This document shows positions 4,651 through 35,993 of a stretch of DNA of 64,000 nucleotides, one piece after another. The notes below the pieces were generated by a model that was not told where the DNA came from, did not search any database, and saw nothing but the letters and a program-made list of their open reading frames with translations. Within the stretch, counting starts at the first letter, position 1; every line of letters starts with the position of its first letter. The position numbers were made by a program, and so were the translations under genes. This DNA is from Roseovarius mucosus DSM 17069 (GTDB lineage Bacteria > Pseudomonadota > Alphaproteobacteria > Rhodobacterales > Rhodobacteraceae): the NCBI RefSeq assembly GCF_000768555.3, contig NZ_KN293975.1, forward strand, positions 248,001-312,000, given 5' to 3'.

Positions 4651-4829
4651 AATTCCAGAGCGAAAGGATCAATCGCGAACCTCACGGGCTCATAGGGCAA
4701 AAACCAGACCCCTCCGGAGGCGATCCGAGTAGGCGCGGCCCACGCGAGTTGGAGCCTGCAACGTCTGAGACATGGACGTGACAGCCGGGAGAGACCGGCA
4801 CCCAAACACCCAAGCCGGAGGCGCATCCC

Positions 4830-5057
4830 ATGTCAGAGACGTTCAAAAGCACTGACGACGCCCGAGTCGTGAACAGCCCCGTGCGCCATATCCCCCGCAC
4901 CTTGAACGACGCCGAGGCGCGCCGGGTCTCAGCCGTCAAGGATATCGGGGATGCGTTTCTGACCGAGATTTCATGCGAGCAGGGGCGCGAGTTCGCCATC
5001 GCGCGCACCAAGATCGAAGAGGCTGTCATGTGGGCCGTCAAGGGGCTGACCCGCTGA
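4830..5057 (+). CDS. Acb2/Tad1-hairpin family small phage protein (putative anti-CBASS/anti-Thoeris sponge)
   Basis: A 75-residue protein with a good Shine-Dalgarno (GGAGG before the ATG at 4830). The pattern VRHIPRTLNDAEARRVSAVKDIGDAF... then GREFAIARTKIEEAVMWAVK is the one I associate with the Acb2/Tad1 hairpin family: a two-helix protein whose C-terminal part reads (S/G)RE-x-(S/A)(L/I)A-x-TK-x-EEAVMWA-x-K. Characterised members bind and hide cyclic nucleotide or cyclic ADP-ribose signals of CBASS and Thoeris defences. The fit is by remembered motif, not alignment, and ligand choice cannot be read from sequence. It lies between the capsid and connector genes, so it would be expressed late. 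Confidence 0.72.
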   Translation: MSETFKSTDDARVVNSPVRHIPRTLNDAEARRVSAVKDIGDAFLTEISCEQGREFAIARTKIEEAVMWAVKGLTR

Positions 5058-5482
5058 TGCCTTACCTCACAACACAAGACATGATCGACCGCTACGGCGA
5101 GGGCTTTTTGGCCGAGATCACCGCCCGCGATGGCACGCCGGGCGTCGTCGACACGGGCGTTTTGCAGGTGGCTGTCGACGATGCCGTGGCCCTGGTCGAG
5201 AGCTATGTCGCGGGGCTCTACAATTCGGCCAACCCACCACGTGCACTCACTGTGCATGCCGCCGCGATTGCCTGGTATCGGCTCCTGGGCGCGCGGGCCG
5301 CTGCCTTTGACGGAGCGAAAGACGGCCATGACGCCGCCTTCGCCTTTTTGCGCCAAGTGCGCGAGGGCGAGGCCTCGCTTGGCGACGAGACGCCCGAGGA
5401 CACCGGCCGGGGCAATCCCCAGCTTCCGCAGATCAGCGCGCCTGCCGGCACCTTCAGCCGCGACAGCCTCAAGGGGTTCTGA
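5057..5482 (+). CDS. DUF1320 / Mu gp36-like head-tail connector protein
   Basis: A 141-residue protein whose ATG overlaps the previous stop by one base (TGATG). It starts MPYLTTQDMIDRYGEGFLAEI, the usual opening of the Mu gp36 (DUF1320) family, and has the helical core VDDAVALVESYVAGLY ... AIAWYRLLGARA. Family members are connector-like proteins at the head-tail joint. A frame opening at 4973 inside the previous gene is rejected as a start. Order capsid, gp36-like, gpG-like agrees with Mu. Confidence 0.82.
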   Translation: MPYLTTQDMIDRYGEGFLAEITARDGTPGVVDTGVLQVAVDDAVALVESYVAGLYNSANPPRALTVHAAAIAWYRLLGARAAAFDGAKDGHDAAFAFLRQVREGEASLGDETPEDTGRGNPQLPQISAPAGTFSRDSLKGF

Positions 5483-5483
5483 G

Positions 5484-5987
5484 ATGGTCACCCTAACCGT
5501 CAGCCTCGACAGTCTCGACTTTGACAACGCCATCGCCGACGGCCTGCGCCAGTTGTCCGACCTCACCCCTTTGATGCAGAACATCGGGACGGTTCTGGAA
5601 ACCTCTGTCTCGGAGCGGTTCGAGAAGGGTGAAGGTCCGGGCGGCATCGCGTGGCCCATCTCGCACCGCGCGCGCGAGTTCGGCGGCAAGACGCTGGTCG
5701 ACAGCACACGCCTGCGCGACAGCATCGTGACAGAGGCCGACAGCTTTTCCGCGCGCATCGGCACCAACGTGCCCTATGCCACGACCCATCAGTTCGGCGC
5801 GTTTATCGAACCCAAGGCCGCAGGCGATGAAGCCACGGCCAAGCTCGCCTTCACCCTGCCCAATGGCCAATTCATCATGGTCGACCAGGTCGAGATCCCG
5901 GCCCGGCCATTCCTCGGCTTTGACGACAAGGACGAGACCGACATCGCGGACACCGTCGAGACCTTTCTGCGCGAGGTCTTCGCATGA
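5484..5987 (+). CDS. Mu gpG-like phage virion morphogenesis protein
   Basis: A 167-residue protein beginning two bases after the previous stop. It has the gpG / phage virion morphogenesis pattern: a helical N-terminus (LMQNIGTVLETSVSERFEKG), a PISHRAREFGGKTLVDSTRLRDSI block, VPYATTHQFGAFI, and a C-terminal PARPFLGFDDKDETDI. Members act in tail completion or head-tail joining. The longer frame from 5130 runs antiparallel in phase to the DUF1320 gene and is not the start. It overlaps the next gene by four bases. Confidence 0.85.
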   Translation: MVTLTVSLDSLDFDNAIADGLRQLSDLTPLMQNIGTVLETSVSERFEKGEGPGGIAWPISHRAREFGGKTLVDSTRLRDSIVTEADSFSARIGTNVPYATTHQFGAFIEPKAAGDEATAKLAFTLPNGQFIMVDQVEIPARPFLGFDDKDETDIADTVETFLREVFA

Positions 5988-18774: not shown

Positions 18775-18840
18775 ATGAACCCCGCCGACCAGGTAAGCCT
18801 CATGGCCGCTCCCTGCCCCAAAGGGGCGGCGACTTTATGA
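18775..18840 (+). CDS. possible 21-codon leader peptide coupled to the com-like gene
   Basis: ATG at 18775 opens a 21-codon frame (MNPADQVSLMAAPCPKG...) ending TGA at 18838-18840, which overlaps the com-like ATG at 18837 (ATGA). A small GCCCC-AAA-GGGGC hairpin sits just before the com-like start and could hide its ribosome site unless the leader is being translated. Overlap and hairpin are seen; translation is inferred. Confidence 0.35.
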   Translation: MNPADQVSLMAAPCPKGAATL

Positions 18841-19055
18841 GGCGATTCGATTTGGAAGGTCTAGAACTGCGTTGCTGCGCATGCGGCCGTTTGCTATTTA
18901 AATACGAGAGAGGCGCGCGGATATCCGGCATCTCGATCAAATGCCCAAGATGCCGGGCCATGAACACACCGAGGCCAAGAGCCCTTCCCCCAAAGCGCGA
19001 TGCGCTAAGAGAAGGAGCCAACCTTGGCCAGATCGACCACACTCCCGAAACCTGA
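18837..19055 (+). CDS. com: Com-like zinc-ribbon regulator (Mu Com family)
   Basis: A 72-residue protein with LRCCACGRLLFKYE followed by ISIKCPRCRAMNTP: two CxxC pairs in the same layout as Mu Com, which also has an RC-x2-C...LLFK...IxCPRC pattern. Com binds the mom mRNA and opens its start site, so that the late DNA-modification gene is made only on time. The protein has a longer basic C-terminal tail (RPRALPPKRDALREG). It lies at the right end of the virion genes directly before the ABC-GNAT gene, the same place com takes before mom in Mu. Confidence 0.8.
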   Translation: MRRFDLEGLELRCCACGRLLFKYERGARISGISIKCPRCRAMNTPRPRALPPKRDALREGANLGQIDHTPET

Positions 19056-19206
19056 CCTGCCGCCCGGTGCGCCGGGCCTGCCCAAGGGCATCCGCTACCG
19101 GCGGCAATATGGCGTCATTGTCCTCCTTGAGGACGAGGCCGCCCAAATGGATGCCTTCGGCCGCCTGCGCCGTCAGGGCTTCAAATGCCGCGTGGTAGTG
19201 ACATGA
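19024..19206 (+). CDS. small protein between com-like and ABC-GNAT genes (TTG start)
   Basis: A 60-residue protein starting at TTG 19024 after AAGGAG, overlapping the end of the com-like gene and, by ATGA, the start of the ABC-GNAT gene. The sequence (LPKGIRYRRQYGVIVLLEDEAAQMDAFGRLRRQGFKCRVVVT) looks like a small alpha/beta domain with a conserved feel: two strands flanking a helix. Codon usage fits its neighbours. Function unknown; the overlaps suggest the three genes are translated as a coupled set. Confidence 0.6.
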   Translation: MARSTTLPKPDLPPGAPGLPKGIRYRRQYGVIVLLEDEAAQMDAFGRLRRQGFKCRVVVT

Positions 19207-20312
19207 AGCTCGCCATTCACCACGCCAGCCCCATCCCGGACACGTACCGTGCGGCCCGGGTCTCCAGCCTCTTCAACGTCGAGGGTGACGCGGATTTCCG
19301 CCTCGAGGTCGAGGCCGATCTCTTGGCTAGGCCCTGGCAGATCGGCCTCATCGTCGGCCCCTCGGGCAGCGGGAAATCCTCGCTCGCCCGCGCGGCCTTC
19401 GGCGCTGAACTTGACCCACGCCCATGGCCCGAGGGCGCGCTGATCGACGCAATTGATCCCGAGGGCGAATTCGATGCCGTTGCGGCCGCCCTCTCCGCCG
19501 TGGGCCTTGGCACGGTGCCGAGCTGGCTGCGCCCCTTTCGTCACCTTTCCACCGGCGAGCAGTTCCGCGCTGAGCTCGCGCGCATTCTGGCCGAGCGGCC
19601 GGGCTTTGCAATTCTCGACGAGTTCACCTCGACCATTGACCGGCGCGTGGCCCAGATCGGGGCCGCCGCCTTTGCCAAGGCGTGGCGGCGCGGCACCGGC
19701 CAGTTCGTCGCCGTCACCTGTCACGAGGACGTGGTGTCCTGGCTGCAGCCCGATTGGGTGATCGACACCCGGCGGGCGGAGTTTCGCTGGAGGCGTCTTC
19801 GACGGGCACCGCGCATTGCCATGGACATTCACCAGACGGACGGCTCCTTCTGGCCCGCCTTTGAGCCGCATCACTACCTGAAGCTGCCCCGCATGATCGC
19901 GGCCAATTATTACGTCGGCTTCGTCGACGGCGCGCCGGTGGCGCATCTCGCCGTCTCGACCCGGCCGGGGCTGGTCGAGGGCCGCGCCTGTCGCCTCGTC
20001 GTCATGCCCGAGTGGCAGGGCGCGGGGCTGGGCCTGCGCTTTCTCAACGAGGTCTGCGCCCTCTGGAGGCGCGGCGTGAACCGCTACGAGAAGCCCATGC
20101 CGATGCTCTTTCACACCTCGCACCCCGGCCTCGCGGCAGCGCTCCGCCGCGATCCCCTCTGGGCGCAGGTCTCGGCCATCCTCTATGCCGAGTCCAAGGA
20201 GCGCAGCATGAAGACCCTCGCCGCCGCCCGGGCACGCAGAGGGCTCAAGCCCGCCGGGACCGGCTACGGCGGCCATTTCCGCGCCGTGCAGGGGTTTCGG
20301 TATGTCGAGTGA
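19203..20312 (+). CDS. ABC-type ATPase fused to a GNAT acyltransferase, in the mom position
   Basis: A 369-residue protein starting at ATG 19203, overlapping the previous stop (a start at 19185 is possible). Residues 1-195 are an ABC ATPase: Walker A GPSGSGKSS at 52-60, signature LSTGEQ at 115-120, Walker B FAILDE at 135-140 and switch His in VTCHEDV at 174. No membrane segments, so it is not a transporter. Residues about 205-369 are a GNAT domain with the acyl-CoA loop QGAGLG at 272-277 in VVMPEWQGAGLGLRFLNE. Mu Mom is itself a GNAT-fold enzyme that modifies adenine in DNA. The same domain pair is known as an uncharacterised group (COG2401). A DNA-modifying role is inferred from place after Com. 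Confidence 0.8.
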   Translation: MKLAIHHASPIPDTYRAARVSSLFNVEGDADFRLEVEADLLARPWQIGLIVGPSGSGKSSLARAAFGAELDPRPWPEGALIDAIDPEGEFDAVAAALSAVGLGTVPSWLRPFRHLSTGEQFRAELARILAERPGFAILDEFTSTIDRRVAQIGAAAFAKAWRRGTGQFVAVTCHEDVVSWLQPDWVIDTRRAEFRWRRLRRAPRIAMDIHQTDGSFWPAFEPHHYLKLPRMIAANYYVGFVDGAPVAHLAVSTRPGLVEGRACRLVVMPEWQGAGLGLRFLNEVCALWRRGVNRYEKPMPMLFHTSHPGLAAALRRDPLWAQVSAILYAESKERSMKTLAAARARRGLKPAGTGYGGHFRAVQGFRYVE

Positions 20313-20432: not shown

Positions 20433-20453
20433 ACCCCGCCCAAGTGGCGGGGT
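20433..20453 (+). terminator. terminator-like hairpin at prophage right end
   Basis: ACCCCGCC (20433-20440) and GGCGGGGT (20446-20453) make a perfect eight-pair stem with a five-base loop, followed by TCTGTCGTTT. Likely a transcription stop that insulates the phage from the dcw operon. Confidence 0.6.
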
Positions 20454-35007: not shown

Positions 35008-35910
35008 TTACGCTAAATCTTTGGTTTCAAGGTGAACGCCCTCGCGCTCGAGCCGGTCACGCAACACGTCGATTTCTATATCGAGATCGGTGGTGCTGTC
35101 CTGCATCAGCGCGCGGGTTTTGGCGGTGAAATTCTGTTCCAGATCGCTGAGGAGCGCGAGGTATTTGTCGCGTGCAGCGGGGTTGGGGGCGCGGGCGTGC
35201 AGATCGGCGAACTTGACCGTCGCGTCGCGCGCGCCCATCAGATAGACGCCCAGATATTTGCGCGCCGCTGTCAGGTCGCGGGGGTCATCCTCAACCGTGC
35301 GCAGCATGTCGCGCACCGTGATCTGGAACCGCTCAAGCCGGGTTTCCGCCTGCCGGTCGCCCGCACGGCTGAGCGCGTCGGTCATGGCGCGCAGGTAATC
35401 CTCGGCCTGATCGACCACCCGCGCCACCCGGTCGCTCTGAAAGCTGTCGACGCCCGCCATCCCCTTGTCCTTGAGAGGATCGAGACCAAAGGCGAAACTG
35501 TGAAGAACCGCGCCGAGGGTGGCATAAATAAGCGGCTCCAGAAGCCCGCCGCCGCTGGCAAAACCCGCAAGCCCAAGGCCCGCGCCGGTGAGCGCGGAGG
35601 CAAAAATCTTGCGCGGAATGGCCGGGCGACGCGCGATCTTGCGCGCCTCATAGGCCTCTTGCGCCAGAATCCCCTCGCGGGTGAGCCATGCCGCCAAGAG
35701 CAGCGCGCCGAGTGCGGCAAGGTTGAATGCCAGTTCCACCGGACCCGAGGCAAAGGCCCGCGCAGCCAATGGCAAAGGCGCAAAGAACAAAAGGTTCACG
35801 CGCCCGCCCGCCCGCGTCCGCCGCGCGCCACGAAAGCCGCCCCGGTCCGGCACGGGCGCGTCCTTGTCCGCGCCATCGGGGCTGTATTTGCCGCCAAAGC
35901 GCTGCGCCAT
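35008..35910 (-). CDS. xpaC: XpaC-like membrane protein
   Basis: A 300-residue protein (ATG 35910; GTG at 35913 is an alternative). After a basic cytoplasmic N-terminus (GGFRGARRTRAGGRVN) come membrane segments (LLFFAPLPLAARAFASG; LAFNLAALGALLLAAW; a third, weaker one near 110-130), then a long helical region (RVARVVDQAEDYLRAMTDAL; DLTAARKYLGVYLMGARDATVKF) that matches XpaC (5-bromo-4-chloroindolyl phosphate hydrolysis) proteins, constant partners of TelA. Start overlaps the stop of a tiny upstream gene. Confidence 0.85.
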   Translation of the reverse strand: MAQRFGGKYSPDGADKDAPVPDRGGFRGARRTRAGGRVNLLFFAPLPLAARAFASGPVELAFNLAALGALLLAAWLTREGILAQEAYEARKIARRPAIPRKIFASALTGAGLGLAGFASGGGLLEPLIYATLGAVLHSFAFGLDPLKDKGMAGVDSFQSDRVARVVDQAEDYLRAMTDALSRAGDRQAETRLERFQITVRDMLRTVEDDPRDLTAARKYLGVYLMGARDATVKFADLHARAPNPAARDKYLALLSDLEQNFTAKTRALMQDSTTDLDIEIDVLRDRLEREGVHLETKDLA

Positions 35911-35993
35911 CACACGCCCCCCGTGGCCGCGACAAACAGGATCAGCGCCACCAGCAGAAGGAACGCCAGTTTCTGAAGTCCCGTATCACTCAT
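35910..35993 (-). CDS. 27-residue single-pass membrane peptide upstream of xpaC
   Basis: ATG at 35993 opens 27 codons (MSDTGLQKLAFLLLVALIL...) ending TGA at 35910-35912, which overlaps the xpaC start by one base. The sequence is one ideal membrane segment with polar ends. Too short for most gene finders. Overlap with xpaC and a plausible membrane role make it likely to be real, perhaps a small subunit. Confidence 0.5.
   Translation of the reverse strand: MSDTGLQKLAFLLLVALILFVAATGGV

Follow-up and report, generated by a model that had tools for sequence, protein, structure and literature searches.

A Com-linked cassette with an adaptor ORF and an ABC ATPase–GNAT fusion at the right end of a Mu-like prophage of Roseovarius mucosus: a putative DNA-modification cassette

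The right end of a Mu-like prophage in Roseovarius mucosus DSM 17069 carries a compact cassette of three overlapping genes on the forward strand (18837 to 20312): com, a 60-aa open reading frame (ORF) that begins with TTG, and an intact fusion of an ABC ATPase with a GNAT acyltransferase. Positions are those of the window, the whole stretch of 64,000 nucleotides that was analysed (contig NZ_KN293975.1, 248,001 to 312,000). Nearly identical loci are present in Roseovarius records. The cassette is real, intact and conserved, and lies in a slot that is mostly used for DNA modification; this position strongly supports a putative DNA-modification role. We regard it as probable that the cassette serves a Mu-like phage for DNA modification under the licence of Com and that the fusion is a putative base acyltransferase; a DNA base would be its target and protection against restriction the expected effect. 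An earlier sequence-only reading of the same DNA had recognised Com at 18837, a GNAT domain fused behind a complete ABC ATPase, a short TTG-start ORF between the two, and a Com-linked cassette in the place of mom, and these four observations are borne out below. The features concerned are as follows.

18837 to 19055, + strand: com, a small Zn-ribbon translational regulator of 72 aa (PF10122, phrog_6417)
18970 to 19035, + strand: predicted translation-inhibition structure (fold z score, openness of the ribosome-binding site)
18973 to 18983, + strand: Com-type RNA hairpin GGC-CAAGA-GCC in the 3' part of com, candidate Com operator (core enriched in com leaders)
19000 to 19008, + strand: ATG CGC TAA (sequence and comparison of leaders)
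19024 to 19206, + strand: small adaptor of 60 aa with TTG start (alignment, profile tally, control loci, ratio of nonsynonymous to synonymous polymorphism)
19203 to 20312, + strand: ABC ATPase (residues 1-200) and GNAT acyltransferase (residues 205-369) (phrog_11143, structure model, invariant motifs)
1 to 20433, + strand: right part of the Mu-like prophage, whose left end lies 18,702 bases before the window
20434 to 20438, no strand: right copy of the 5-bp target duplication CCCCG, which is present at both ends

The com cassette forms the last genes of a 39.1-kb Mu-type prophage (39,135 bp in total, left end at G000:C1:229299). The termini are of the TG...CA type, starting with TGTAGGG and finishing with CGCTACA at window 20433, and CCCCG borders the element on both sides. 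Upstream of the window the genome encodes a MuA transposase (DDE_2, 139 bits) and, at the position of MuB, an AAA ATPase; the window itself opens inside a Mu gpF-like head gene of the prophage. Only 121 bp separate the end of the fusion from the right end of the prophage, the same place that mom occupies in Mu, and no complete ORF of at least 40 aa is found on either strand from 20313 to the phage end at 20433.

The survey of com neighbours that the sequence-only reading had called for was carried out with PF10122 in 390 genomes of the window's order and 398 of its phylum, of which 13 and 26, respectively, gave a match. The two samples share at least 21 genomes (G000-G020); the com of the window's genome, G000, is the sole one found in both and was counted once. 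In the resulting 46 com loci the next gene encodes a DNA methyltransferase in 32, Mom in two (L115; L103 with L251) and an ABC-GNAT in four, with eight other or unresolved cases. Pfam assignment of 36 payload proteins divided the methyltransferases into 21 D12, nine C5 and two N6_N4 enzymes; the D12 count includes L120, although its com match is below the cut-off, and L116, whose score (E 1.9e-4) is 0.3 bits below the cut-off. Among the loci without a modification call, one encodes a HEAT-repeat protein (L100), two encode proteins of no family (L098, L119) and one (G687:C24) yielded no locus, while the payloads of L063, L105, L106 and L121 are degraded, truncated or frame-shifted by eye or fall under the cut-off. 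The HEAT-repeat protein (L100:1099-1485) and one protein of no family (L098:1106-1552) directly follow com and are candidates for modification or anti-defence genes. A weakly com-like gene (E ~1e-3) is also found at an annotated DNA methyltransferase in the Burkholderia phage records AP3 and Mana.

Searching the same 390 genomes of the order with phrog_11143, for which the five best candidates per genome were scored, recovered four intact full-length ABC-GNATs, all directly behind com. Full-length matches alone were used because ordinary ABC ATPases gave phrog_11143 matches in all 390 genomes. The arrangement also occurs in the Pseudomonas phage Komp_PAO1_1 (L001), in which a com gene at 4683-4931 precedes adaptor, fusion and a formyltransferase gene; the deposited annotation of this phage lists no com.

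Comparisons of closely related loci showed that ABC-GNAT is exchanged in this slot with methyltransferases and with Mom. Two prophages of one genome, L064 and L055, share 98.4% identity over a stretch of 1,672 bp that includes com and 94.8% over 191 bp after the payload, and between these flanks one carries adaptor plus ABC-GNAT and the other an N6_N4 methyltransferase. Two further pairs, each within one genome (L062/L066, 94.3%; L056/L065, 94.6%), exchange ABC-GNAT for a C5 methyltransferase at the same point. In transposable phages of Porphyromonas, Mom (L259) alternates with adaptor, ABC-GNAT and formyltransferase (L002) between flanks that are 86% and 84% identical; no Com was seen at these two loci.

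The fusion is best read from 19203, where its start overlaps the stop of the small ORF as ATGA, to 20312, giving a protein of 369 aa. Its match to phrog_11143 (residues 2-368, E 1.6e-130) covers the full length and both domains, and the fusion evolves under strong constraint (ratio of nonsynonymous to synonymous substitution rates, 0.03-0.06 against four close relatives). Its ABC part scores 38.9 bits against ABC_tran, and in an alignment of 79 sequences the Walker A (G52-K58), LS-G (L115-G118), Walker B DE (D139-E140), D-loop DR (D146) and switch His (H174) positions are invariant. The AlphaFold2 (AF2) model has a mean predicted local distance difference test score of 88.5 for the whole fusion and 88.8 for the GNAT part alone, and shows a GNAT fold at residues 205-369, a region in which Pfam GNAT matches stay below their cut-offs. 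GNAT enzymes bind acyl-CoA through a loop with the motif Q/R-x-x-G-x-G/A. Such a loop is present around Q272-G-A-G-L-G, so that the domain has both the motif and the fold of the family, and R264, V266, P269, Q272 and G273 are invariant in the 79 sequences. Structure comparison placed small transporter-type nucleotide-binding domains closest to residues 1-200 among the 50 matches listed (Z ~14), and GNATs, RimI among the best, closest to residues 205-369 (Z ~14-15). SMC- and RecF-type ATPases are not among the 50 matches listed, all of them nucleotide-binding domains or GNATs, a listing that does not decide against the RecF/SMC-like sliding suggested by the sequence-only reading; the SMC family PF02463 matches at E 0.003, below the cut-off. 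PADLOC reports a mad3 match in the ABC part (E 7e-15), which we read as generic ABC similarity. The ABC-GNAT family was found in 52 phage records, from many hosts.

The small ORF between com and the enzyme has a TTG start that is preceded by AGAAGGAG, and it matches phrog_28816 (E 1.2e-9). Its pooled ratio of nonsynonymous to synonymous polymorphism (pN/pS) over 12 relatives is 0.44 in its own frame, while the two other frames give 1.41 and 1.22; it is under protein-level selection. In phages of Gordonia, Rhodococcus, Arthrobacter, Pasteurella, Leptospira, Streptococcus and Lactococcus, a ParB-like gene lies directly upstream of ABC-GNAT, and the small ORF aligns as a homologue of the C-terminal ~37 residues of the ParB-like protein, as in NYTQQYAVTVVCADEAEQEAVFERLSAEGLTCKVVTV of a Gordonia phage and RYRRQYGVIVLLEDEAAQMDAFGRLRRQGFKCRVVVT of the window. 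The alignment identifies the small ORF as the detached C-terminal domain of the ParB-like partner of ABC-GNAT.

The distribution of this domain is consistent with that origin. From 112 ABC-GNAT loci, four with less than 250 aa were left out, 91 were non-redundant at 90% and 80 of these had 700 bp upstream. A hidden Markov model (HMM) of the adaptor found the domain upstream of 74 of the 80: joined to a ParB part in 49, behind Com in 16 and alone in nine. When the six seed loci are excluded the figure is 68 of 74, a number that still includes L015 and L038, whose domains are identical to those of two other seeds. The model gave zero matches in 67 control loci, and, judged by eye, the ParB-like protein ahead of Mom in phage Antuna ends differently and shows no adaptor domain. 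Because the viral scan for ABC-GNAT kept the best 80 matches, these proportions describe the sample only. We read the adaptor as a part that docks or guides the enzyme, presumably in contact with it.

How Com might control the cassette was approached through its RNA site. The Com ORF scores 28.9 bits against PF10122 (cut-off 22.9), which places it in this Zn-ribbon family, and it matches the PHROG "translational regulator" family phrog_6417 (E 1.8e-9). According to PMC6483171, Com binds a hairpin whose loop carries the motif CC-N2/3-GAG and is closed by a C-G pair; the Mu site AUGCCUGCGAGCAU is contained in the 19-mer used there. In the window, the adaptor start overlaps the 3' end of com (19024-19055), and a hairpin with a CC-N2/3-GAG loop lies upstream, its candidate RNA being GGCCAAGAGCC. 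The com pattern was matched by 63 of 68 leaders attempted (failing: L063, L114, L121, L122 and L175), and 48 of these, including those of Mu and the window, are non-redundant. The core GCC N2-3 GAGC occurs 50 times in 37 of the 48, against a background of 0.025 per 90 nt. Outside the core, and against expectations that assume independence and ignore relatedness, the first flanking pair is standard in 47 of 50 (21 expected), the second in 35 (24 expected) and the third in just 11 (16 expected). The first pair varies in kind (GC 22, CG 19, TA 3, AT 2), and this covariation is the independent part of the evidence for an operator. Since the first two pairs exceed expectation and the third falls below it, the stem is about four pairs long, which the Mu site fits. 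Protein coding does not explain the cores, because they sit in different com reading frames. Two or more cores, mostly 20-24 nt apart, are present in 12 of the 48 leaders. A looser scan found hairpins in 59 of the 63 leaders, compared to 10.8 in shuffled sequences and an expectation of 14.7 based on other parts of these loci. These results make the window hairpin a candidate operator to which Com would bind.

The window leader is, moreover, predicted to fold into the form expected of a Com-released translation block, placed on the adaptor, with the enzyme following by the ATGA overlap. The 96-nt leader folds with a z score of -3.72, and none of 200 shuffled sequences was as stable. In the predicted structure the sequence of the Com hairpin pairs with the UUG start, and the CCCUUC that follows it pairs with the Shine-Dalgarno (SD) sequence of the small ORF. 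The mean computed probability that the SD bases are open is 0.17, against 0.56 with the upstream sequence shuffled, and none of 60 shuffles reached so low a value. Across the 23 leaders of the com-adaptor-fusion type, the SD is less open than the mean of its own shuffles in 22, and in eight no more than three of 60 shuffles are as closed as the leader itself. At 19000-19008 the window reads ATG CGC TAA, so that the payload start codon of related com cassettes has become a two-codon frame with a stop after it; the adaptor uses a TTG with a strong SD in place of the ATG of those cassettes.

From these elements the following course of events may be proposed. Transcription would read through com, and without Com the hairpin sequence and the CCCUUC would mask the UUG start and the SD; Com bound to the hairpin would free both. 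The small ORF and the fusion would then be co-translated via the ATGA overlap. The adaptor of 60 aa, which in other phages forms the end of a ParB-like protein, may dock the ABC-GNAT or aim it at DNA, where the ABC domain would serve as an ATP-driven dimer switch that clamps or opens the DNA and the RimI-type GNAT would move an acyl group from acyl-CoA onto a base amino group. DNA modified in this way would withstand host restriction.

Several observations weigh against this interpretation. The homologues in our sample mostly lack com and lie behind ParB-like genes (49 of 80, compared to 16 of 80 behind com), two matches in G073 of the window's order cover the GNAT half only and have no com, and five of the 80 loci have neither adaptor nor ParB while one has a ParB part only. 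The sequence-only reading had held that homologues found mostly away from com in an unrelated context would speak against it; the first half of this describes the sample, and the second does not, because the adaptor domain is common to ParB-type and com-type loci. Eleven of 48 leaders lack the operator core, which was picked after the leaders and the published Mu site had been seen and is set against expected numbers that ignore relatedness. Six of the eight strong SD results come from one close lineage, and the leaders of L062, L056 and L001 are not clearly better folded than their shuffles (z +1.53, -0.59 and -1.08). An alignment by hhalign of the fusion, or of its GNAT alone, with Mom gave E 0.04-0.11 at a probability of ~1%. 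Finally, the structures that most resemble the GNAT are N-acetyltransferases acting on proteins and small molecules, RimI included (Z ~14.5), and for this reason a protein substrate is possible.

This last point is the basis of a different view, in which the fusion would be a moron whose targets for acetylation are proteins of the host or the phage (RNA polymerase, ribosomal or defence proteins), with the ATPase as a conformational clock and com timing the expression. Besides the RimI-like fold (Z ~14-15), it can draw on phage GNATs that act on RNA polymerase, as noted in PMC7824862. We judge it unlikely in view of the company the fusion keeps: 34 of the 42 com loci without ABC-GNAT have a DNA-modification enzyme in the slot, the fusion is in allelic exchange with Mom and methyltransferases, and its partner domain is common to ParB-like proteins. 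The ABC domain could alternatively be the active part, as an anti-restriction or DNA-remodelling factor that clamps DNA or protects its ends, leaving the GNAT structural or regulatory. ABC ATPases are common in DNA maintenance and the mad3 match lies in the ABC part; the invariance of the five GNAT residues and the transporter-type domains among the listed ABC matches nevertheless render this view improbable.

A further possibility is kinship to Mom. The fusion shares the slot with Mom, hhalign places its HHYL on the HYS of Mom in register and without significance, and a Mom appears in a viral fold search at rank 43 (E 1.2e-3). PF25680 (Mom), on the other hand, gives no row for the fusion at E up to 1 and no listed match for the window's genome, the solved Mom structure 8bv8 is not among the matches listed in the structure searches, the acyl-CoA loop of the fusion is not seen by eye in the Mom alignment, and Mom has neither an ABC domain nor an adaptor. 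Homology of the fusion to Mom is therefore not claimed, the hhalign alignments of the whole protein and of the GNAT alone being non-significant. Given the invariant residues, the RimI-like fold, the missing PF25680 row and these alignments, the GNAT looks like a canonical acyl-CoA enzyme, one that would use acyl-CoA, and not a recognisable Mom. A divergent Mom performing the same methylcarbamoylation of adenine is accordingly very hard to credit. Chance also offers a poor account, according to which com and the fusion would be independent morons that happen to be neighbours at the phage end: most fusion homologues of the sample do lie away from com, but com, adaptor and fusion come together repeatedly (16 of the 80 non-redundant loci, one of them in a Pseudomonas phage at 58% identity), the reading frames overlap, and the adaptor SD is predicted to pair with sequence in com. 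We hold such a coincidence to be highly improbable and continue to favour a Com-licensed DNA-modification cassette.

Compared to com-mom of Mu, the window cassette shares the overlap of com with the payload start (Mu com 35768-35956, mom from 35877), a Com hairpin with a CC-N-GAG loop and the location at the right end of a transposable phage. It differs in that a 60-aa adaptor and ABC-GNAT take the place of Mom as payload, and in that the start codon beside com belongs to the adaptor, the enzyme coming next by the ATGA overlap. ParB-like and ABC-GNAT pairs of actinophages and of Leptospira, Pasteurella, Streptococcus and Lactococcus phages have a homologous fusion, which in the Streptococcus and Lactococcus records is split into two adjacent genes, and carry the adaptor domain at the C terminus of the ParB-like protein; the window keeps this C-terminal domain only, with no adjoining ParB-N. 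The RNA cytidine acetyltransferases TmcA/NAT10 combine an ATPase and a GNAT in one chain and acylate a nucleobase amino group. They serve as an analogy only: they differ in having a helicase-type ATPase and an RNA substrate, and the sequence match to the GNAT profile lacks significance (E 0.07).

PMC7824862, citing Iyer 2013, mentions an earlier prediction that a GNAT coupled with an ABC ATPase makes an uncharacterised acyl modification on a DNA base. The core idea is thus already in print as a prediction, and the sequence-only reading, which took such a role as undescribed, is corrected on this point. The domain pairing is the same, the window fusion being a full-length phrog_11143 member; the Com link, the swapping of the fusion for methyltransferases or Mom, and the detachment of the adaptor are, as far as the literature covered goes, additions of the present analysis. 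Nothing on the Com association, the adaptor or the swaps was found in the literature searched, a scope outside which Iyer 2013 lies; within this scope the Com socket, the operator and the derivation of the adaptor are new.

A further gene accompanies many of these cassettes. Where 700 bp downstream were present, a formyltransferase-like gene follows the fusion in 10 of 13 com-type, five of nine adaptor-only and eight of 55 ParB-type loci, counts that include L001, L002 and L003, from which the search HMM was seeded; three such genes tested belong to PF00551. None was seen in the window's prophage. PurN reads N-x-H at a motif where these proteins mostly read G-Y/F-H-P-S-L-L-P, and L001:6113-6730, L002:6131-6604 and L003:1805-2452 keep the His of NxH and not the Asn. 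This altered motif suggests altered chemistry.

Some relatives of the cassette show additional rearrangements. The window's genome contains a second, broken fusion copy at G000:C1:149700-151524 (L050; 89-94% DNA identity), which is interrupted by an insertion of ~0.7 kb and is not behind com, the PF10122 search finding none at this locus; the right-end sequence of the phage recurs ~3.2 kb beyond it. In a close relative, a BLUF blue-light sensor gene (L019:7215-7751; PF04940, E 1.4e-28) lies behind the fusion and is followed by a duplicate of the fusion 3' end. At another locus an additional ~3.3 kb separates the fusion from the right end of the phage (L024:7142-10484); this segment includes a RES-domain gene (PF08808, E 7e-21) and may be a toxin or defence island. 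In L049 a ParB_N-like gene (4983-5837) overlaps the start of the MuA gene, scoring 22.5 bits in Pfam, below the cut-off, and E 6.5e-6 with our own ParB HMM; the adaptor HMM finds no C-terminal domain in its product.

A broader proposal, which we put forward tentatively and with less than even confidence, is that Com is not specific to Mom and acts as a general translational gate of an exchangeable "modification socket" in temperate phages via a recurrent GC-C(N2-3)GA-GC hairpin, and that ABC-GNAT uses ATP and the guidance of the adaptor to acylate bases, as the DNA counterpart of TmcA/NAT10, and produces a new base that in some phages is altered further by a PurN-like enzyme. If this is true, Com would be a marker for DNA-modification genes, and an unknown gene behind a Com operator could be read as a modification enzyme whatever its family. 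The ABC-GNAT family would become testable with a three-gene construct. Mom is not known to need ATP, and an ATP requirement in base acylation would pose a new question of enzymology. Cassette swaps behind one RNA switch would allow phages to change their DNA disguise while keeping its timing, and, with com standing ahead of many exchangeable DNA-modification genes in relatives, the chemistry of the cassette is directly testable.

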